A program made the position numbers and the translations under genes. A stretch of 34,076 nucleotides of DNA, taken from positions 1 to 34,076 of the forward strand of contig DAHUXT010000006.1 in assembly GCA_027307065.1 (NCBI GenBank). Direction: 5' to 3'. Below are positions 1,687 to 14,901 of this stretch, in pieces; position 1 is the first letter of the stretch, and each line of letters starts with the position of its first letter. The stretch comes from Ktedonobacteria bacterium (GTDB lineage: Bacteria; Chloroflexota; Ktedonobacteria; Ktedonobacterales; JADMIN01). The notes below the pieces were generated by a model. It ran no database searches. It had not been told where the DNA came from and saw only the letters and a list, made by a program, of their open reading frames with translations.

Positions 1687-2919
1687 ATGACCACGACAAC
1701 ATCCTCCAGCGGAACCGCCGCGGAGCAGCCATCGGAAAAGCGCGACTGGGTAGCTCTCGAGCACAAGTATTACCAGAGTACCTTCAAGCGCAATCTGGTG
1801 ATGGAACGTGGCGAGGGCGCGCGCGTGTGGGACGCGAACGGCAAAGAGTATCTCGATCTGGTCGCGGGCATCGCCACCAATGTGCTCGGCCACGCGCATC
1901 CCAATGTCGTGCGTGCCATCCAGGAGCAGGCGACCAAGCTCATCCACGTCTCGAATCTCTACATCAACGAGCGGCAGGTCGAGCTGGCCGAGCAGCTGTA
2001 CAACCTGAGCGGTGGCATGCGCTCGTTCTTCTCGAATAGCGGCGCGGAGGCTAACGAAGGCGCGATCAAGCTGGCGCGCAAGTATGGACGGCTGCATCGC
2101 AACGGCGCGTTTGGCATCATAAGTATGGAGCGCTCGTTCCATGGGCGCACGCTGGCAACCACCGCCGCGACGGGCCAGAAGAAGTATCAGGATACCTGGC
2201 TGCCACTGCCGGAAGGCTTCAAGCAGGTACCTTTCAACGATCTCGACGCCGTCAAAGCCGCGACCGACAACAACACCATCGCGGTGCTGGTCGAGGCGGT
2301 GCAGGGCGAGGGTGGCATCTACCCCGCGACGACCGAATACCTGCAAGGGTTGCGCGCCTGGTGCGACGAGCAGGACCTGATTCTGATCTGCGACGAGGTG
2401 CAGGCGGGCATGGGCCGCACCGGCAAATTCTTTAGCTGGGAGAATATGGAGGTCCGCCCCGACATCACGACGATGGCGAAGGGACTGGCTGGCGGCGTGC
2501 CTATTGGCGCGATGCTCGCGGGCGAGCGTGCCGACATCTTCGAGCCGGGCGACCACGGCACGACCTTTGGCGGCAACCCGATTGCCTGTGCCGCTGGCGT
2601 TGCCACCATCCGCACGATTCTCGACGAGCACCTGATCGAACATGCCGACGACATGGGCGAGTATCTCGAAGGCAGGCTGCAGGAGCTGCGCAGCCGCCAC
2701 AGCAGCATCATCACCGGCCAGCGCGGCCTTGGCCTGATGCGCGCCTTTGATCTCGCCGACCCCAAGGCGAACGACATCATGGATCGCGCGTTGGAGCGCG
2801 GGCTGCTGATTACCAACGCCGGGCCGTCCACCATTCGCTTTGTGCCGCCGCTGATCATCGAGCGCAGCGATGTCGATGAGGCGATGGAGAAGATTGACGC
2901 GTCGCTGGCGGCGCTGTAA
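1687..2919 (+). CDS. argD: Acetylornithine aminotransferase (class III PLP aminotransferase)
   Basis: Motifs NSGAEANEGAIKLARKYG, ICDEVQAGMGRTG, TTMAKGLAGGVPIGAM, GTTFGGNPIACAAG; ATG at 1687 preceded by AAGGAG. The ORF-track start at 1537 is probably too far upstream. Confidence 0.93.
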   Translation: MTTTTSSSGTAAEQPSEKRDWVALEHKYYQSTFKRNLVMERGEGARVWDANGKEYLDLVAGIATNVLGHAHPNVVRAIQEQATKLIHVSNLYINERQVELAEQLYNLSGGMRSFFSNSGAEANEGAIKLARKYGRLHRNGAFGIISMERSFHGRTLATTAATGQKKYQDTWLPLPEGFKQVPFNDLDAVKAATDNNTIAVLVEAVQGEGGIYPATTEYLQGLRAWCDEQDLILICDEVQAGMGRTGKFFSWENMEVRPDITTMAKGLAGGVPIGAMLAGERADIFEPGDHGTTFGGNPIACAAGVATIRTILDEHLIEHADDMGEYLEGRLQELRSRHSSIITGQRGLGLMRAFDLADPKANDIMDRALERGLLITNAGPSTIRFVPPLIIERSDVDEAMEKIDASLAAL

Positions 2920-2952
2920 ATTTCGCTGAGTACAGTAATCGGAGAACGACCT

Positions 2953-4407
2953 ATGCCATATGACGAGCAGACCAGGGGGGCCTCAGGCTCGAACGGCAGC
3001 AGTGCCGATGGAGCCGGACAGGCGTATTCGCGCCAGGGCAATGAAGCTGCCGCCGCTGGCGATTATGAGGGCGCCGAAGAGGCGTTCGCCCAGGCCGTAA
3101 CAGCCACTCCGGGCGACGCGCGCGCGCGCTACAATCTGGCGCTGGCCCGTCAGAACCTCGGCGATGTCGAGGGCGCGATCGCGTCCTACATGCGGGCAAT
3201 CCGGCTCGATCCGGCGCTGATGGAGGCGTACATCAACCTGGGCAACCTCTACGGCGACCTTGGCCTGCATGAGGAGTCGCTAGAAGTCTTCCAGCGGGCG
3301 CTGGAGCTCGATACTGGCAACGCCGAACTGTTCATCAATGTGGGCGATGCGTACAAGCAGCTCGGCTTCTTCGATGACGCGATTCTGGCCTATCGCCAGG
3401 CGCAGATTCTGGAACCAGACAACACGCTCGCTGCGGATAATCTGCTGGATGTGCGCGAGCGGCAGAAACAGCAGACCGACCATATCGCCGTGCTCGAAAA
3501 GCGCCTGGACGAAGATCCCCGCGACCTGGAACGCTACAGCACGCTGGTGCAAGCCTACCTGGAGGCGCACCGCGAGCAGGACGCGCTGACGCTGGCGAAT
3601 CAGATGGTGGCGCTTGAGCCGGAGAGTCCCGACACCTACCGCACCCAGGCAATGGCCTACGAGTCGCTGGCGCGGGTGGATGAGGCGGCTGACGCATGGC
3701 AGCATGTGGTGCAGTTGACGCCCGACGACGCCGAAGCGTGGGAGCATTTGGGCGCGTGGCGCGAGGAACAAGGGCTTGCGGACGACGCGATTGACGCCTA
3801 TCGCAAAGCCTCCGACCTGACGCCGGAGTCGAGCGGGCTGCGCTTTAGCCTGGCTGAGGCGCTGCGCGACGCCGAACGCTACGACGAGGCGATTGAGGCC
3901 TTCAGGGGGCTGGTGCAAGAGCATAGCAAGGCCGATAACCAGGATGACGAGGAAGCATTGGCGGACTCCTATTCCGGGCTGGCCGCGTCGCTCAATCTCT
4001 CAGAGCAACACGACGAGGCGCTCAAGGTCGCCGATGAGTTCCTGCAGCGCTTCCCCGACGATCCCGAGGCGCTGTACGAACAGGCTTCCGCCTACGATGC
4101 GCTCGGACGCCACGACGAAGCCATCGCGTCGTACGAGCAGGCGCGGGTCGGCGATCCGCTGAACCCAACGATCTGCAACGACCTGGCGGATACCTATCTC
4201 GCCGCTGGCCGCACGAATGATGCGGTCGAGATGGCTGAGACGGCGGTCTCGCTCGACCCGGAGATGGCCGTCGCGTATGAGACACTGGCGCAGACGCTGA
4301 TTGCCGCTGGCCGCAATGCTGAGGCGGAAGAGGCTCTGCAACGCGCCGCCGAGCTGCATGCCGCCGAAGACGCTGAGTACCAGACGGAGGATGACGAGGA
4401 GTCATAG
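2953..4407 (+). CDS. TPR repeat protein
   Basis: Many 34-residue TPR-type repeats (e.g. AYINLGNLYGDLGLHEESLEVFQRALELD); GGAGAA upstream. Confidence 0.88.
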   Translation: MPYDEQTRGASGSNGSSADGAGQAYSRQGNEAAAAGDYEGAEEAFAQAVTATPGDARARYNLALARQNLGDVEGAIASYMRAIRLDPALMEAYINLGNLYGDLGLHEESLEVFQRALELDTGNAELFINVGDAYKQLGFFDDAILAYRQAQILEPDNTLAADNLLDVRERQKQQTDHIAVLEKRLDEDPRDLERYSTLVQAYLEAHREQDALTLANQMVALEPESPDTYRTQAMAYESLARVDEAADAWQHVVQLTPDDAEAWEHLGAWREEQGLADDAIDAYRKASDLTPESSGLRFSLAEALRDAERYDEAIEAFRGLVQEHSKADNQDDEEALADSYSGLAASLNLSEQHDEALKVADEFLQRFPDDPEALYEQASAYDALGRHDEAIASYEQARVGDPLNPTICNDLADTYLAAGRTNDAVEMAETAVSLDPEMAVAYETLAQTLIAAGRNAEAEEALQRAAELHAAEDAEYQTEDDEES

Positions 4408-4543: not shown

Positions 4544-5536
4544 ATGTTCTGCCTCGAATGCGGCGCGGAAATGGCCATCCGGGCGCGCGCATGTCCGGTT
4601 TGTGGGCATGTCTATGGAGATCGCGAGCGTTCGCTGTCAGAGTCTCCGCTGGGGCAGGGCGCTCACGGGACGATGACATTCGCGCCACCAGCCGATCACG
4701 CAGCACTCGGGCGAACGGCACACGCATCTGGATCGGTCGTCCACGTCGGCGACCGCGCAGTGACCGGGCTTCCGCATGACCTGCCCGGTCGCGTGGTGCT
4801 TGCCGTTTCGCTGGGCATGGCAGCCGACCTGATCCTGCCGTGGATTAGCGTGAACAGCGTGAATGTCACGCCCGCGAGCATTGGCGCTCCAGTGGTGGTG
4901 GTGGTGGCGATGCTGGCGATGGCGGTGCTTCCGGTGTTCACATCCTCGCTGCGTCAGCATCCCGTCTGGTCGGCGCTTCCGCTCATCATCGGCGCGTTCT
5001 GCGTGGGCATTTCTGGGTGCATCTGGCTGTTGCTGGCTCCGCTCACCCAAATTTTCGCCGCCTCATTTGGCAGTGACCCTTCCAATCTGTCGCTCTCGCC
5101 CCAGGCAGGCCTCTATCTGTTCCTGATCGGGTCGGCGACACTGCTGGTGAGCGGTCAGCGCATGCTTGCCGCCACGAATGAGGCGCTCGTGGCCGATGCT
5201 CGGCGCGATGCTCTCCGTTCGGCGCAGGCGCGCTCGTCTGTGGCCACCCGCGCGGCACCTTCCGCAACGGTATCTTACGTCAGTGCGTCCGGGCTGTTCG
5301 CGCCCGTGGCTGCCTCAGCCGCCGAGTATACCACCGATGGACGGGCCGAACCAGCGCCCGTATCCGCCGAGACATCACAGCAACAGCCGCATGTTCCAGC
5401 GGCGCCTCCAACACCTGTTGGGCCGGTTTTGCCAGGTTCAGCGGCTTGGCATCAGGCGCCTGCCGCTCCGGCTCCGCTTCGCCCGGCGCCAGGTGGCGGC
5501 TGGGGGAAATCGCGCAATCTGCCACGGCCACGCTAA
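4544..5536 (+). CDS. Zinc-ribbon membrane protein of unknown function
   Basis: N-terminal MFCLECGAEMAIRARACPVCGHVYGDRE (CxxC-x10-CxxC), several hydrophobic segments, Pro/Ala-rich C-terminus; ATG at 4544 after GAGAGGAG. Confidence 0.75.
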   Translation: MFCLECGAEMAIRARACPVCGHVYGDRERSLSESPLGQGAHGTMTFAPPADHAALGRTAHASGSVVHVGDRAVTGLPHDLPGRVVLAVSLGMAADLILPWISVNSVNVTPASIGAPVVVVVAMLAMAVLPVFTSSLRQHPVWSALPLIIGAFCVGISGCIWLLLAPLTQIFAASFGSDPSNLSLSPQAGLYLFLIGSATLLVSGQRMLAATNEALVADARRDALRSAQARSSVATRAAPSATVSYVSASGLFAPVAASAAEYTTDGRAEPAPVSAETSQQQPHVPAAPPTPVGPVLPGSAAWHQAPAAPAPLRPAPGGGWGKSRNLPRPR

Positions 5537-5546
5537 CACGTCCGCG

Positions 5547-6941
5547 CTAGTCGAGCGGCGTCGTCTCGCCATCAACTGTGTGTTCGTCGCCGTGCTGCAT
5601 CGCGCCATCATCCTCGCCCAGGTCGCGGTCGCCATCCGTGCCCGTAGCGGTGTCCGTGTCCGCGCTCGCGTCAGGAGGCATATCAGCCGGGCGAATCACC
5701 ATCTCGTGTGTGAGCGGAACGGTGGTCTGCGACGACGAGCTGTGACCGTTGGAAGGCTGGTGCGCATTGTCGTCGTCAATGGTGGTGGCGCGCGCGAGAT
5801 CATCATCTGCGAGCGGCGCGACGAACCGAAGAGCCACCGTGCCCACCTGGACAAGATCGCCATTGAGCAGGCGGCGCGGGGTTGTGATTTCCTCGTCGTT
5901 GACGTGCGTGCCGTTGTTGCTTTCCAGATCGCTCGCGTAGTAGCCGTCTGACTGCCGCACGATCTGCGCGTGGCGTCGCGATACGGTCGCATCGGGCAAC
6001 TGAATCTGGCAGGAGCTGTCGCGCCCAATGCCGGTCACCGGATCGAGCAGTGTCCAGCGGCTACCTGCTGCCTCGCCCTGCACCACGACGAGCGTAGGCA
6101 GAACCGATGGTGGAAGCGTCTGCCTGCGTTTCGCGCCATTCGCGCCGGGCACCTTGGCGGTGTCTACACTGTGACTGCCGTCCGCCGCGTCGATCACGCT
6201 AAATAGATAGCGGCGCGCGCCAAGCTCTACGATGTCACCGCGTTTCAGCGGCACTGGCTGCGACACCCGCTGGTGATTGATCAACGTGCCATTCATGCTG
6301 CCGAAGTCCAGCAGCACCGCGAGGCGATGATCCAGGCGAATCTCGGCATGGTGGCGCGAGATGCGCTCGTCGTTCAAGACAATGTCGTTATCGACCTCGC
6401 GACCGATCAGCGTCAGCCGTTTCCGCAAGATCAACGGACGCCCGCCACCGGTTTCATCATCGCCGAGGATGGCAAGCTGAGCCCACGGCGCATCATCCTT
6501 GTTGATGGAGTCATAGCGCGCGGGGTCGGCAATCGCCAGCCGCATGGCTGCCTCGAGCTGGGGGCTGCGCTTCACTGCTGCGCGTTCTTCGGGTTTATGA
6601 GGCTCGGCCAGCGCCACGTAGCTGGTCAGGATGCCCAGTGGCAGGGTCCATCCGAAGATGGTGATCCACGCCAGCACCAGTGTAACCTCGGCAACGTCGA
6701 GACTCGCGCCAAAGAACACGAACCGTGTCTGATCCCACCACACCGGGAAGATCATCGCCGCCGCGCTCCCCAGGCACACCAGTATCGCCAGCGCGGACTG
6801 GCGCGGAGTGCCACGGTGAAACACCAACGCCCAGATCGCGAGGCCGGAGGCGGCCACTACCGCGCAGGTCAGACCGCCAAAGCTGCCTACATCGACCCAC
6901 GCCGGAAACGCTGTGCCATCCACACTTCGCCGCCAATCCAC
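5547..6941 (-). CDS. Membrane protein with two C-terminal FHA domains
   Basis: Hydrophobic N-terminal segments, then two FHA signatures: IGREVDNDIVLNDERISRHHAEI..SMNGT and IGRDSSCQIQLPDATVSRRHAQI..SNNGTHVN. GTG start. Confidence 0.85.
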   Translation of the reverse strand: MDWRRSVDGTAFPAWVDVGSFGGLTCAVVAASGLAIWALVFHRGTPRQSALAILVCLGSAAAMIFPVWWDQTRFVFFGASLDVAEVTLVLAWITIFGWTLPLGILTSYVALAEPHKPEERAAVKRSPQLEAAMRLAIADPARYDSINKDDAPWAQLAILGDDETGGGRPLILRKRLTLIGREVDNDIVLNDERISRHHAEIRLDHRLAVLLDFGSMNGTLINHQRVSQPVPLKRGDIVELGARRYLFSVIDAADGSHSVDTAKVPGANGAKRRQTLPPSVLPTLVVVQGEAAGSRWTLLDPVTGIGRDSSCQIQLPDATVSRRHAQIVRQSDGYYASDLESNNGTHVNDEEITTPRRLLNGDLVQVGTVALRFVAPLADDDLARATTIDDDNAHQPSNGHSSSSQTTVPLTHEMVIRPADMPPDASADTDTATGTDGDRDLGEDDGAMQHGDEHTVDGETTPLD

Positions 6942-6943
6942 TG

Positions 6944-8032
6944 CTATTCTATCGGTTCGATGTCGTGATCGCGTTCGTACTGTATATCTATCACACGCAG
7001 AATCTTCCCGCTCTGCTGATAGCTCTTAAACTCATTTTCCCCAGTGATATTCGCCTGGTTTCCGGTATAGCCGCCAGCGAGCGAGGTCTCCCAGTAATCG
7101 ATGGGCGCGCTAGCAGTGGGACCGAGCGCCACGCCGATGAACGCGTGGCCAGGCACAATAATGATGTAGGGGTGCATGCCGAGGTTCTCGATGGCCGAGG
7201 CGAGAATGGCGGACGTTTCCAGGCACATCGCGGTGGGGGCGCTCTGTGAGAGCACATCCGCCGGAAGCTGAATCCGCTGCGTCGCGTCGCGGGTGAAGGG
7301 AATGGCGTCGCTGGCGTAGCGTACGTGGTAGTCGAACTGGAGCGTGTCGAACAAGACGTCGATCTGACCGCGCACGTCGTCGGGGGTTGCGCCGCCAATG
7401 TATCCGTGCAGGCTGGTGGTGGCAGGGTACGCCGACGCGCCTGATGGGCTTGCCAGCCGGGTCACCGCGCGGGAGCGCAGCGCGCTGATAACCGTGGCAT
7501 CTGGTGTCACCCATCCCGCGAGATAGGCAAAGTTGTCATCCGTGCCGGAGCTATACCATTTCATTACCTGGCGCGACACGAGGGTTATTGGCACGTTGGT
7601 GTCGCAGAGTACTTTGCTCAATGACATCACCCGCAGATGGAGTTGCGCGACACGCTGCCCCGGCGCCACAAGCGCGTCGAGCGCGGCGACGTCGAGCACG
7701 GGCGGCTTGAATGTATACTGCTGAAAGCTGCGCACGGCCGTCACCTGGATGCTCTGGTCCTGAGTAAACTGAGGAATGCTGAGGGAAATGCGCAATGTCT
7801 GCCGCATCTCGCTGCGGTAGCGCACGACGGCGAGGCTCGGCTGGTTGACGTAGAGGCCCGTATAGAGGCGCTGAGGTGGATTCCAGGAGATGAGGGTATC
7901 GCAGGAACTGGTATAGCTGGCGAGGCTCGTCTGGTATTGGGCGTAGAGATGGCTGCCCGCCAGGACGTATCCCGCAGCGCTCACGACGAGGACCGCAAGC
8001 AACACGGCCAGCCAGAGGTACCTCCGACGCAT
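6944..8032 (-). CDS. Membrane-anchored transglutaminase-like (Cys/His) protein
   Basis: N-terminal TM segment (YLWLAVLLAVLVVSAAGYVLAG); C-terminal MCLETSAILASAIENLGMHPYIIIVPGHAFIGV...DYWETS resembles a Cys-His-acidic transglutaminase-like core. Confidence 0.6.
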   Translation of the reverse strand: MRRRYLWLAVLLAVLVVSAAGYVLAGSHLYAQYQTSLASYTSSCDTLISWNPPQRLYTGLYVNQPSLAVVRYRSEMRQTLRISLSIPQFTQDQSIQVTAVRSFQQYTFKPPVLDVAALDALVAPGQRVAQLHLRVMSLSKVLCDTNVPITLVSRQVMKWYSSGTDDNFAYLAGWVTPDATVISALRSRAVTRLASPSGASAYPATTSLHGYIGGATPDDVRGQIDVLFDTLQFDYHVRYASDAIPFTRDATQRIQLPADVLSQSAPTAMCLETSAILASAIENLGMHPYIIIVPGHAFIGVALGPTASAPIDYWETSLAGGYTGNQANITGENEFKSYQQSGKILRVIDIQYERDHDIEPIE

Positions 8033-8260: not shown

Positions 8261-8830
8261 CTACGAGTTGGGGGTCTGTGTTGGTACCGTTGTCGCGCCG
8301 CCAGCGGAATTGTGGTGGCCCGGCAGATGCCCAGCGATGCCATGCTCGACATTGCCCACTTCGTGAACGGCACCTGCCGCTGCGCCGCCAATTGCCCCGG
8401 TCACGCCGCCGACGACATGGCCCAGTCCATGCCCAAGCGCGCCAACATCGCCAACCGCGGCCTGACCCAGATGGACGGCCTCTTGCTCGGCTTTGCGCGC
8501 CAGCACTTCAGCTTCTTTCAGCGCGGCAGCCGCGAGCTTTTCGGACTCTTCGATGATCATCTCGATGATCTTGACGATTGCCCGCAGAATCTCACCGATA
8601 AAGACGGTAGCCGCCACTGCGTAGCCGAACGCCAGGGCGAGCGCCGCCGCCGCCAGATATGTCGGGCCGCCGATCGTCTTGGTCAGGACGAATCCAACGA
8701 GGATGGTTGCTACGGCCGTAATCGCCGCCACCAAGAATCCCGTGATCACCACCGCCAAAAGCGCCCGCCGCAAAGCTTCCAACGTATGCTTGGCAGCCGT
8801 CCCCAGCAGCTTCATTAAACGCTGTTCCAC
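8261..8830 (-). CDS. Hypothetical membrane protein with Gly/His/Ala-rich tail
   Basis: Two hydrophobic segments then long helix EESEKLAAAALKEAEVLARKAEQEA; GTG at 8830 has a strong GAGGAGCGGAGAGC RBS. The ORF-track start is 8866. Confidence 0.6.
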   Translation of the reverse strand: MEQRLMKLLGTAAKHTLEALRRALLAVVITGFLVAAITAVATILVGFVLTKTIGGPTYLAAAALALAFGYAVAATVFIGEILRAIVKIIEMIIEESEKLAAAALKEAEVLARKAEQEAVHLGQAAVGDVGALGHGLGHVVGGVTGAIGGAAAGAVHEVGNVEHGIAGHLPGHHNSAGGATTVPTQTPNS

Positions 8831-9059
8831 GCTCTCCGCTCCTCTTCTCACCGCGCATAATTGCATCTGCGGGAATCGCCCGCCAGCTATAGGTTAAGTC
8901 CTAGTGTCTCAGATTTTACGACGCCGCGCAAGTAGCCAGCACCTAACGCTTCGCCCATAACCGTTCAGCATACCCACTTCTTACTACGAACGAGGCAGCC
9001 GCAAGGATGTGCAGATATGCCTATTTCAGGGGAACGTGAAGGTAAGGAAGAGATGTGAG

Positions 9060-9754: not shown

Positions 9755-10897
9755 TTAACCGTTGAGCCAGGTGTCGTCAGGGAAGACGTCACCTTCAAAG
9801 CTCGGATGCCCGTCAAAAGCGTATGCCATTGCTTCGGATGAGTCGGATTCGCCGACGAGTACATTACTCACGCGATTCCACAGGCCGCCAGAACGACCAC
9901 CTTCTACGGTGGGCAGCGGTCGCGTGACAGCAGGCAATGGGCGCGTGACCGCTGGAATCGGACGGGTAATGCTGGTGTTGCGGTGCCAGCCCCGTGGTAT
10001 GAGGCCAGGAACATCGGGCGTGCCGTGAGCGATAACAGGCTCGCCAGTGTCATGCTGTCCCGGCGTCGCATCGCGATGCGTGGGCGGTTGGTCAGCACGC
10101 AACGCCGCGACCGCTCCCGGCGGTGACTTCCAGGGCGACTGATCTGGCAGTGGCGCCGTTTCAGGTGAGGTATATGAGGCACTCCGCGCACTTGTTGGCG
10201 TCGACAGGTCGTCATACGTCCACTCGATGCGAGGGAGCCGTGTTGCGAGCACCGGAAGCGCCTGCATGCCGGGCACAGGCGTCCATATCAGAGCGTCATC
10301 AGGGTCGCGGCGCGATCCGGGCGGCTCAATGTAGCGGACGTCTGACGGCGGCTTCACTCGATGCATCGTGTTGCGAGCCACATCACGGGACGCATCAAGC
10401 CCAACGCTGCCAACGATTGTCGAGGCAGCCATCACGCGCCCGTTGGCCACTGGCCGCGACTTTGGGGCAACCCTGGCGAGTGCCGGGCGGGCAGTCGCTC
10501 TACGCGATGTGCCGCCGGCGGTACGTCGCAGCATTGCGCCCAGGTCGCCAACGTCGCGCTTGGCAAAGACCGCAGCAGCTCGCGCGCCCACCTGCGCATC
10601 GCCTTCCAGATGGCGGATGAATCGAAGGCCACCCTTGAGCAATAGCGCGGCAAGCGTTGTAATCGCCACGGCGTAGCCCAGCGCAAACGCGAGCGCAACG
10701 GCGACCAGGTGCGTAACCGGAGGCGGGGGAAATGAGGCGGTCATATATGCGGAGACGCCCTCAGTCGCGATCAGCGCAGCGAGCGCGGTGAGCAGGCCAA
10801 CGCGCAGAACACGCTGCCAGTAGACCAGCACGACGCCGACAATCTGCCGGAATGCATGGGTTAACGCTTCGGCGTCCATCTGCAGTCTGTCGCTCAT
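9755..10897 (-). CDS. Hypothetical membrane protein with Pro-rich cytoplasmic tail
   Basis: Two hydrophobic segments with ALGYAVAITTLAALLL similar to AFGYAVAATVFIGEIL of the 8261-8830 product; start MSDRLQMD at 10897. Confidence 0.6.
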   Translation of the reverse strand: MSDRLQMDAEALTHAFRQIVGVVLVYWQRVLRVGLLTALAALIATEGVSAYMTASFPPPPVTHLVAVALAFALGYAVAITTLAALLLKGGLRFIRHLEGDAQVGARAAAVFAKRDVGDLGAMLRRTAGGTSRRATARPALARVAPKSRPVANGRVMAASTIVGSVGLDASRDVARNTMHRVKPPSDVRYIEPPGSRRDPDDALIWTPVPGMQALPVLATRLPRIEWTYDDLSTPTSARSASYTSPETAPLPDQSPWKSPPGAVAALRADQPPTHRDATPGQHDTGEPVIAHGTPDVPGLIPRGWHRNTSITRPIPAVTRPLPAVTRPLPTVEGGRSGGLWNRVSNVLVGESDSSEAMAYAFDGHPSFEGDVFPDDTWLNG

Positions 10898-11107
10898 AAC
10901 CACCACTCCCGCTTCGCCCGCTCTTGTGCCACTATCGAGATGCCTCACATTGTATCATGACGAACCACGGCGGCATGGAGAATCGATATAGCCGTAGTTG
11001 CCTGGGTAGCTTCCCACGAGTGCCCGTACATTGGCTTGCCAGGACGCGCTATATTTTCTGTAGCACGAGCGATGCGCAGGTAGGCGTATCGTGTATCAGG
11101 AGGCATC

Positions 11108-12527: not shown

Positions 12528-13481
12528 ATGATTCTTGCCCTGGCGGGCGGTGTCGGCGGGGCGAAACTCGCGGACGGCCTGTATCGGTCACTTGCGCCTG
12601 ATGCGTTGACCATCGTGGTCAACACTGGCGATGATTTCGATTTGTACGGGCTGCGCATCTCGCCGGATGCCGATACGGTGCTCTACACGCTTGCTGGCCT
12701 TGCCAACCCAGAGACTGGCTGGGGTATCGCGGGCGATACCTTCGCGACGCTCGACATGTTGCGCCGCTACGGCGAGGATACCTGGTTCATGTTAGGCGAC
12801 CGCGACTTCGCCACCCACATCCAGCGCACTCGCTGGCTGCGCGAGGGCAAGACGCCCACCGAGATAGCAAGCGCGTTCGCGACATTGCTTGGCGTGCGTG
12901 CCCGCCTGCTGCCCATGTGCGATGCGGCAGTCGCCACCCGCGTCAATACACCCGCTGGCGAACTGGCGTTTCAGGATTATTTCGTCCGGCGGCATCACAG
13001 TGATGAGGTATTGGGCGTCCGTTTCGAGGGAATCGCCGATGCCCAGGTAACGCAGACGCTGCGCGACGCGATTGATCAGGCCGAGACAATCGTGTTCTGC
13101 CCGTCGAATCCTATCGTCAGCATCGGCCCGATTCTGGCAGTAGCGGGAGTGCGGGACCTGATACGCCAGGCGCGCGCGCCACGAGTCGCCATCAGCCCCA
13201 TCGTCGGCGGTCAGGCATTGCGCGGGCCAGCGGATCGCATGCTCGCGGGGCTGGGTGATGAGGTATCGGCGTTTGGCGTTGCCCGGCTCTATGCTGACGT
13301 GCTCGACGGCATGATCATCGATAGTGCTGACGCGTCGCTCGCCGGGCGAATTCGCGATGAGCTGCACCTGGATGTTCATGTCACCGATACTGTCATGCGC
13401 ACGCAGTCCGATCGTTTACGGCTCGCCCAGGAGGCGCTGCAATTCGCGCAGCATCGTATCCGAGCGGGGAAATCACTATGA
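12528..13481 (+). CDS. cofD: 2-phospho-L-lactate transferase (F420 biosynthesis)
   Basis: LALAGGVGGAKLADGLYR, NTGDDFDLYGLRISPDADTVLYTLAG, FMLGDRDFATHIQRTRWLREGKTPTE, PSNPIVSIGPILAVAG. Confidence 0.95.
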   Translation: MILALAGGVGGAKLADGLYRSLAPDALTIVVNTGDDFDLYGLRISPDADTVLYTLAGLANPETGWGIAGDTFATLDMLRRYGEDTWFMLGDRDFATHIQRTRWLREGKTPTEIASAFATLLGVRARLLPMCDAAVATRVNTPAGELAFQDYFVRRHHSDEVLGVRFEGIADAQVTQTLRDAIDQAETIVFCPSNPIVSIGPILAVAGVRDLIRQARAPRVAISPIVGGQALRGPADRMLAGLGDEVSAFGVARLYADVLDGMIIDSADASLAGRIRDELHLDVHVTDTVMRTQSDRLRLAQEALQFAQHRIRAGKSL

Positions 13482-14134
13482 AGCTCGCCGCTATCGTACC
13501 GCTCAATCGCCGATCTCAGGCGAAGACCCGGCTGGCGGGCGCTCTCGCCTCCAGCGATCGGGCAAATCTCGCGTTGTGGCTGGCGCAGCGAGTGATTGCG
13601 GCGCTGCGGGATGCGCAGGTTGTTGATGGTGGTATTGGGGTCATTAGTCCGGATGACGAGGTCTTGCGCTGGGCGTGGCGGAGCGGCGCGACGGCTGTGC
13701 GCCAGCACTGCGGCGGGTTGAATGATGCCGTCGCACTGGGGAGAGACTGGGCCTTGGCGCGCGGCGCCGATGCGCTGATGGTCGTGCTGGGCGACCTGCC
13801 GTTACTTGCCGCTGCCGACGTGCGCGCTCTGGCGGCTGCTGCGACCGAGATGCCTTCGCCGCCCTCCATCACGATTGCGCCTGATCGCGCGGGCCGCGGC
13901 ACCAACATTCTCGTGGTTCGGCCACCGGCGGCGATGCCATTCGCATTTGGTGAAGATAGCCTCTCGCGCCACGTCGCGCTCGCCCGCGAACTGGGCATCG
14001 AGCCACGTATCATCCAGTTGCCGGGGGTGGCATTCGATGTCGACACGCCTGAAGATGTGCGGGAGCTGGCAACACGTGGCCTATGGCAGCCGCCCCACTT
14101 CGAGCGTGACCTCTTCGCGGGAGAAGCGTCATGA
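13478..14134 (+). CDS. cofC: 2-phospho-L-lactate guanylyltransferase-type enzyme (F420 biosynthesis)
   Basis: AAIVPLNRRSQAKTRLAGAL..VVLGDLPLLAAADV..IAPDRAGRGTNILVVRPP..FDVDTPEDV; 4-nt overlap with cofD. Confidence 0.92.
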   Translation: MKLAAIVPLNRRSQAKTRLAGALASSDRANLALWLAQRVIAALRDAQVVDGGIGVISPDDEVLRWAWRSGATAVRQHCGGLNDAVALGRDWALARGADALMVVLGDLPLLAAADVRALAAAATEMPSPPSITIAPDRAGRGTNILVVRPPAAMPFAFGEDSLSRHVALARELGIEPRIIQLPGVAFDVDTPEDVRELATRGLWQPPHFERDLFAGEAS

Positions 14135-14901
14135 CATTCGCACCAGAGATTCGTCTGATTGGCCTGAGCGCCTTCCCGGAGGTGACTCCCGGCATGAATC
14201 TCGCCGAATTGGCGCGCGCCGCCATTCGTGATGCGGGCGAGGAATTGCGCGACGGCGATGTGCTGGTCGTGACGCATAAAATTGTGGCAAAGGCCGAGGG
14301 CAGACTGGTGGACCTGAGCACCGTCGAGCCATCCGATTTCGCGCGGCGATGGGCCGCCGCGTGGGGGAAAGACCCGCGCCACATCGAGGTGGTGCTGCGC
14401 GAGAGCGAGCGCGTCGTACGAATGGATCGCGGCATCCTGATTACCCAGACCCGTCATGGCTTCGTCTGCGCCAACGCGGGCGTCGACGCGTCGAATGTGC
14501 CGGGCGACGAGATGGTCTGTCTGCTGCCACTCGACCCGGATGCTACCGCGCAAACGATGCATCACGCGCTCTCAGAAGCGGCGGGGGCGCATGTGGCGGT
14601 CATTATCGCCGATTCGTTCGGGCGCCCCTGGCGCAATGGTATCGTCAATGTGGCCATCGGCGCCGCTGGCCTTGTTCCTCTGATAGACTATCGCGGGCAG
14701 GTGGACGATTTCGGGCGGACGATGCAAGTGAGCGTGTTGGCGGTAGCCGACGAGTTGGCCTCCGCCGCCGAGTTGGTAATGGGCAAGGTCAGCCGCTGCC
14801 CGATGGCGCTGGTTCGCGGCTACCCCTACGTGCGACGCGCCAGTGGTGAATCCTCGGCTCGCGAGCTTCTCATGGATGCCTCGACCGATATGTTCCGCTA
14901 G
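14131..14901 (+). CDS. cofE: Coenzyme F420-0:L-glutamate ligase, stand-alone CofE
   Basis: DVLVVTHKIVAKAEGRLVDLSTVEPS, ITQTRHGFVCANAGVDASNVPGD, IIADSFGRPWRNG; 4-nt overlap with cofC. Confidence 0.94.
   Translation: MTFAPEIRLIGLSAFPEVTPGMNLAELARAAIRDAGEELRDGDVLVVTHKIVAKAEGRLVDLSTVEPSDFARRWAAAWGKDPRHIEVVLRESERVVRMDRGILITQTRHGFVCANAGVDASNVPGDEMVCLLPLDPDATAQTMHHALSEAAGAHVAVIIADSFGRPWRNGIVNVAIGAAGLVPLIDYRGQVDDFGRTMQVSVLAVADELASAAELVMGKVSRCPMALVRGYPYVRRASGESSARELLMDASTDMFR

Follow-up and report, generated by a model that had tools for sequence, protein, structure and literature searches.

In Ktedonobacterales, an order of soil bacteria, a membrane protein with two FHA domains is encoded directly downstream of a membrane-anchored transglutaminase-like protein. 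Translation of the FHA gene in most of the family Ktedonobacteraceae very probably begins at an ACG codon that selection has kept in at least eight genera, presumably for a low or regulated level of the FHA protein, while its partner would be an outside-facing enzyme that has turned into a pseudoenzyme in the genus Thermogemmatispora. With somewhat less assurance, we favour the reading that both genes encode one membrane unit, in which phosphorylation inside the cell is coupled to a domain outside it.

A conserved gene pair in Ktedonobacterales

The window that we analysed, a stretch of 34,076 nucleotides, is one contig of a 3.9-Mb genome in 558 contigs. A preliminary description of this DNA had put forward two genes on its reverse strand as a two-gene unit, and both open reading frames were found, preceded by that of a small membrane protein:

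5547..6941, (-): gene 2, 464 aa, starting with GTG; protein with three TM segments and two FHA domains, the latter predicted to be cytosolic (ORF, Pfam FHA at 3.2e-40, hydropathy)
6944..8032, (-): gene 1, 362 aa, starting with ATG; membrane-anchored transglutaminase-like protein (ORF, family profile, Pfam matches of relatives, AlphaFold2 model with pLDDT 89.8)
8261..8866, (-): upstream membrane/coiled protein of 201 aa, no Pfam family

The pair is flanked on one side by a convergent group of argJ, argD, TPR and zinc ribbon genes and on the other by the gene for the 201-aa protein, with genes for F420 synthesis (CofD, CofC, CofE) farther upstream. The latter form a compact cluster with overlapping genes (12528-14901, (+)), which adjoins a luciferase-like monooxygenase gene. 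In the window's family, and in no other, most genomes have the 201-aa protein upstream of the pair, and it is possibly a family-specific third member of the unit. In its membrane region it is similar to the protein encoded at 9755-10948 (-); neither of the two matched a Pfam family.

Named relatives of gene 1 belong nearly all to Ktedonobacterales, e.g. Ktedonosporobacter rubrisoli and several Thermogemmatispora. A profile of the gene 1 core (A4) detected the gene in 28 of the 47 genomes of the order, with a 29th being marginal, while a profile of the FHA membrane domain (A3) gave strong matches in 39 of the 47 and a marginal fragment in a 40th. Wherever enough contig was available for assessment (27 loci from 15 genera and three families), gene 2 was found directly downstream of gene 1 on the same strand, in line with the proposed two-gene unit; across families, the FHA gene is the only neighbour that gene 1 loci have in common. 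The pair occurs once per genome, among housekeeping genes, and its distribution follows the families in the tree. Twelve genomes possess the FHA gene without gene 1, many of them with downstream genes of the same kinds as beside the pair, and in a tree of FHA proteins these solo genomes cluster, as if gene 1 had been lost once and not shuffled away, although the support for this grouping is weak (87/42). Since the FHA protein persists without gene 1 in these genomes, we read it, on its distribution, as the constant core and gene 1 as its usual partner, one that is not required for the function of the FHA protein.

The solo genomes could also be taken to mean that adjacency merely reflects accidental operon inertia and that the two proteins have unrelated jobs in the envelope. 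We regard this as highly improbable: adjacency is maintained in 27 of 27 loci while the other neighbours vary between families, the solo genomes cluster in the FHA tree, albeit weakly, and a protein from another Chloroflexota family (L107, see below) carries both domains in fused form. That the pair acts as one unit is instead supported by this constant adjacency and by the fusion, and also by the invariant phosphothreonine pocket of the first FHA domain, described in the following section.

The FHA protein and its start codon

Gene 2 had been described as polytopic with two FHA domains, which agrees with our analysis: Pfam FHA was matched in two stretches (3.2e-40), and hydropathy gives three transmembrane segments at about residues 23-41, 49-67 and 86-104, which makes the protein polytopic in a modest sense. 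Its features are as follows:

6630..6875, (-): membrane domain, three TM, residues 23-104; conserved G44, W69, R73, E85, G97, W98 and P101; positive-inside loop HRGTPRQ
6222..6431, (-): FHA1, with the phosphothreonine-pocket residues R181, S195, R196, H198 and N217 all present
5817..6086, (-): FHA2, pocket intact in the window's protein, lost in several lineages
6921..6923, (-): GTG, codon 7 of the listed gene 2 ORF and probable true start, five codons before the F of FPAW

Judged by their sequences, both FHA domains of the window's protein have an intact phosphothreonine-binding pocket, as had been anticipated. In FHA1, every pocket residue is present in 39 of 39 family members, while Thermogemmatispora, K. 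rubrisoli and one group of six solo genomes have lost the pocket of FHA2. The HRGTPRQ loop, together with a positive stretch after the third transmembrane segment, predicts that both FHA domains reside inside the cell.

The preliminary description let gene 2 start two nucleotides after the stop of gene 1. This is correct for the GTG at 6941; however, in 9 of 11 genes from the window's family (f1) and its nearest sister family (f4), a start codon lies exactly five codons before the conserved F of an FPxW motif. The window's gene therefore probably starts at the GTG at 6923 and not at 6941, which would widen the intergenic gap from 2 to 20 bases.

Bacterial start codons other than AUG include GUG and UUG, and the AUU of infC; ACG lies outside the accepted list and, to our knowledge, almost never begins a bacterial protein. 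In Ktedonobacteraceae (f2), the conserved N-terminus of the FHA protein (FPTWF..GCYGGL) is encoded ahead of any ATG, GTG or TTG. The fifth codon before the F of the motif, ATG or GTG in 9 of the 11 sister-family genes (f1/f4), is ACG in 24 of 28 Ktedonobacteraceae genes (L040, L041, L044-L055, L109-L113, L115-L117, L119 and L043). The exceptions have an ATG at the same codon (L118), two codons earlier (L108, L114 and also L043, in addition to its ACG) or seven codons earlier (L042). In 22 genes from eight genera (g9, g12, g15, g17, g18, g19, g23 and g25), the 25 codons that precede the motif contain no usual start, and most of these genes have an in-frame stop within about ten codons. The ACG is preceded by a purine-rich, Shine-Dalgarno-like stretch; Thermogemmatispora, g18, most of g25 and part of g9 have a strong version of it (AGGAGG or GGAGG, 6-8 bases off), the others a weaker one. 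Between genera, the N-terminal FHA codons display a pN/pS of 0.36 in frame, whereas both shifted frames give values above 1. From these sequence comparisons, ACG looks like the conserved start codon of the Ktedonobacteraceae FHA genes.

Three other explanations for the ACG were considered. Readthrough or frameshifting from gene 1 into the FHA gene is excluded because the ACG is also present in solo FHA genes, some of which follow a divergently oriented gene. Internal ATG or TTG codons were rejected as the true start, since the stretch upstream of them is under purifying selection in frame and they are not preceded by an obvious Shine-Dalgarno sequence. If, finally, the codon were merely that of a conserved threonine, codon usage would produce ACG in all nine genera with a probability of about 1e-5, an approximate value that treats genera as independent. 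A control for non-canonical starts in other conserved ORFs was too noisy for interpretation, as it flagged 57 of 170, including many shadow ORFs; the FHA gene alone was flagged consistently against 11 genera, and the control leaves room for other such genes. In two solo FHA genes (L117 and L118, genomes G039 and G024), the match to the membrane-domain profile contains one in-frame stop (TGA, TAG), apparently located a short way before the proposed start.

Like the GUG, UUG and AUU starts, the ACG of the FHA genes is a near-cognate codon with a Shine-Dalgarno-like sequence before it; unlike them, it is outside the start list, and it is conserved here in at least eight genera. In E. coli, ACG initiates at 0.1-1.5% of the level of ATG (PMC6925171). 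If our reading is true, an entire family makes conserved use of a codon that gives less than 2% initiation in that organism, and standard bacterial gene calling, which disallows ACG, would misplace the N-termini of such genes.

Gene 1 encodes a predicted transglutaminase-like protein

The features of gene 1, including the proposed active-site residues, are listed below:

7952..8020, (-): N-terminal TM anchor, about residues 5-27 (hydropathy; helix 2-38 in the model)
7559..7831, (-): beta-sandwich with an Ig/UNC119-like fold, preceding the core at about residues 68-158 (model strands; Foldseek UNC119, A2ML1, C5)
6947..7555, (-): transglutaminase-like core, about residues 160-362 (core model pLDDT 91.7, pTM 0.91; Foldseek)
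7223..7225, (-): Cys270, proposed nucleophile, N-terminal end of helix 270-283 (alignment, DSSP of the model)
7145..7147, (-): His296, proposed catalytic His, start of strand 296-302 (alignment, DSSP of the model)
7088..7090, (-): Glu315, proposed acidic third residue, end of strand 311-315 (alignment, DSSP of the model)

A Pfam scan of the window's protein returned no family. When 22 relatives (alignment A1) were scanned singly, Transglut_core2 was matched in 11 (best 5.9e-8) and Transglut_core in 10 (best 1.5e-5). AlphaFold2 modelled the full-length protein with a pLDDT of 89.8 and the core alone with one of 91.7. In a Foldseek search with the full-length model, human transglutaminases 3 and 2 occupied ranks 1-6 (E 3.6e-4 to 7.7e-4, but at a high rmsd), followed by UNC119-like beta-sandwich proteins. 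The core alone retrieved two microtubule-complex entries and menin at the top, menin being its most frequent fold match, and, at lower ranks, LapG, TglA, arylamine N-acetyltransferase, 3isr, XPC and TgpA, which mostly belong to the same superfamily. Individual solved structures were matched only weakly by the core (menin to TgpA, E 0.014-0.12, TM-score up to 0.43), and a profile-based PDB sequence search gave one inconsequential match (E 0.038). Profile and prediction thus support the assignment of gene 1 to the transglutaminase-like (papain-fold) superfamily, the fold that its motifs had originally suggested.

The TM anchor, also noted before, is the single transmembrane segment seen in hydropathy, at about residues 6-24. 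It is preceded by the sequence MRRRY, from which an N-in/C-out topology is predicted, with the transglutaminase-like core outside the cytoplasm; the lipoprotein-like character of two distant relatives (L101, L102) points in the same direction.

The preliminary description had picked out a Cys (MCLETSA), a His (PGHAF) and an acidic residue (DYWET), and all three motifs are present in gene 1, carrying C270, H296 and E315. In the model, a helix begins with the Cys and a strand with the His, and the strand after that ends with the acid, which is the canonical order. Cys and His are retained in every aligned sequence that reaches the site, Thermogemmatispora excepted; at the third position, the window's family has Glu and Ktedonobacteraceae have Asp. 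In six Thermogemmatispora genomes (L046, L048, L049, L050, L053 and L054), GMC is replaced by GSD and PGHAF by PDRTL, with the loss of both Cys and His, yet pN/pS values of 0.13-0.22 demonstrate strong purifying selection on the gene. Going by these substitution patterns, the Thermogemmatispora protein is therefore a maintained, genus-wide pseudoenzyme. The FHA2 pocket of the neighbouring gene has been lost in this genus as well.

A purifying selection that outlasts the active site could indicate that gene 1 is mainly a receptor or scaffold, with a fold that recognises some peptide or envelope ligand outside the cell and an FHA protein that relays the signal. Menin, the commonest match of the core, and XPC/Rad4 indeed use the same fold without catalysis. 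However, a pure binder would not need the Cys, His and acid that are kept in all other lineages, and we hold this role to be possible but rather doubtful.

In the membrane unit that we favour, FHA1 would dock a phosphothreonine protein at the membrane by way of the cytosolic FHA module, while gene 1, a single-pass protein, would expose its beta-sandwich and the thiol-enzyme core outside the cytoplasm. Ser/Thr phosphorylation inside would then be coupled to the outside domain through the membrane domain of the FHA protein, presumably by contact between the two proteins and with the signal running outwards. The outside domain would cleave or crosslink an envelope protein in most lineages, acting as a protease or a crosslinker, and only bind one in Thermogemmatispora. 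Coupling to a cysteine hydrolase or crosslinker, as first suggested, may thus describe most lineages, but catalysis is not obligatory, with Thermogemmatispora lacking Cys and His and twelve genomes having the FHA protein only. Such a unit would be compact, follow family lines and tie an outside thiol-enzyme-like domain to an inside reader of phosphothreonine; its natural gene 1 variants (active-looking, inactivated and absent) separate catalysis from binding.

Related systems in other bacteria

The claim that no described system has this architecture was too strong, given the PFNA operon, the transglutaminase-like domains of MoxR-vWA systems and fusions in other Chloroflexota. In bifidobacteria, the PFNA operon (pkb2-fn3-aaa-atp-duf58-tgm, joined by prpC and fha in some species) likewise clusters a membrane transglutaminase-like protein, presumed to be a cysteine protease, and an FHA protein with signalling genes (PMC8430577). 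However, PFNA includes a kinase, an FN3 protein, an AAA ATPase and DUF58, whereas our pair consists of two genes only, and a scan of window genes and conserved neighbours turned up none of these partners beside it. Pairing is conserved in the neighbourhood, but no Ser/Thr kinase was found among the genes scanned there, and the proposed kinase link is left to rest on FHA biology and the distant L107 fusion.

TgpA of Pseudomonas aeruginosa (DUF3488/transglutaminase) resembles gene 1 in being a membrane protein with an extracytoplasmic transglutaminase-like core, and its periplasmic domain (6g49) is among the fold matches of the core (rank 45, E 0.12). TgpA itself is polytopic, and MoxR and DUF58 usually accompany it. 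Gene 1, in contrast, has one transmembrane segment in place of a multi-TM N-terminus, a preceding beta-sandwich and an FHA partner, and neither MoxR nor DUF58 families occur among the window genes scanned. The actinobacterial proteins FhaA and FhaB, which accompany PknA and PknB, are membrane or kinase-linked FHA proteins; as gene 2 may do, they read phosphothreonine in envelope processes. They lie in kinase/cell-division operons, whereas gene 2 combines tandem FHA domains with a distinct three-TM domain and a transglutaminase-like partner. Among the papers searched, none joined Ktedonobacter with transglutaminase, or DUF4011 with transglutaminase.

Across the phylum, the A1 profile matched in 36 of 400 genomes. 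Several of the distant relatives suggest biological conflict: the domain is fused to EAD7 and adjoins a NACHT-FGE protein (L056), is fused to VMAP-C beside an AAA/MoxR-like ATPase and NACHT (L106), or forms the N-termini of DUF4011-helicase-MTES_1575-DUF3320 proteins (L103-L105), for one of which, L104, the best PADLOC matches were PDC-S37 and Hhe. Transglutaminase-like domains have been described in MoxR-vWA conflict systems by Aravind and colleagues (PMC7159879, PMC8195603). With its nearest homologues outside the order in such settings, the pair might belong to a defence system, its domain being an effector or protease triggered by infection. We consider this unlikely. MoxR-vWA/VMAP, EAD and DUF4011-helicase (Hhe, PDC-S37) systems share the homologous domain with gene 1 by profile (E 2e-11 to 1e-33), but they are multi-gene systems with effector or regulatory fusions and no TM anchor seen, while the domain of the Ktedonobacterales pair is membrane-anchored, stands alone and has an FHA partner. 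VMAP-C, EAD, NACHT, MoxR and DUF4011-helicase were absent from gene 1 and the window genes scanned, PADLOC returned no match for the pair, and its housekeeping surroundings, single occurrence per genome and distribution along families are unlike those of mobile defence loci.

The N-terminal domain of the helicase proteins (L104:8956-15147(+), L105:251-6388(+), L103:8299-9987(+)) contains both Cys and His, although the Pfam scan assigned no family to this region. The L107 protein (5092-6996(-)), cut at the contig end, unites FHA, a transglutaminase-like domain and Clp_N, and a Ser/Thr kinase (Pkinase) gene lies nearby; the L107 coordinates also include 2198-4153(-).
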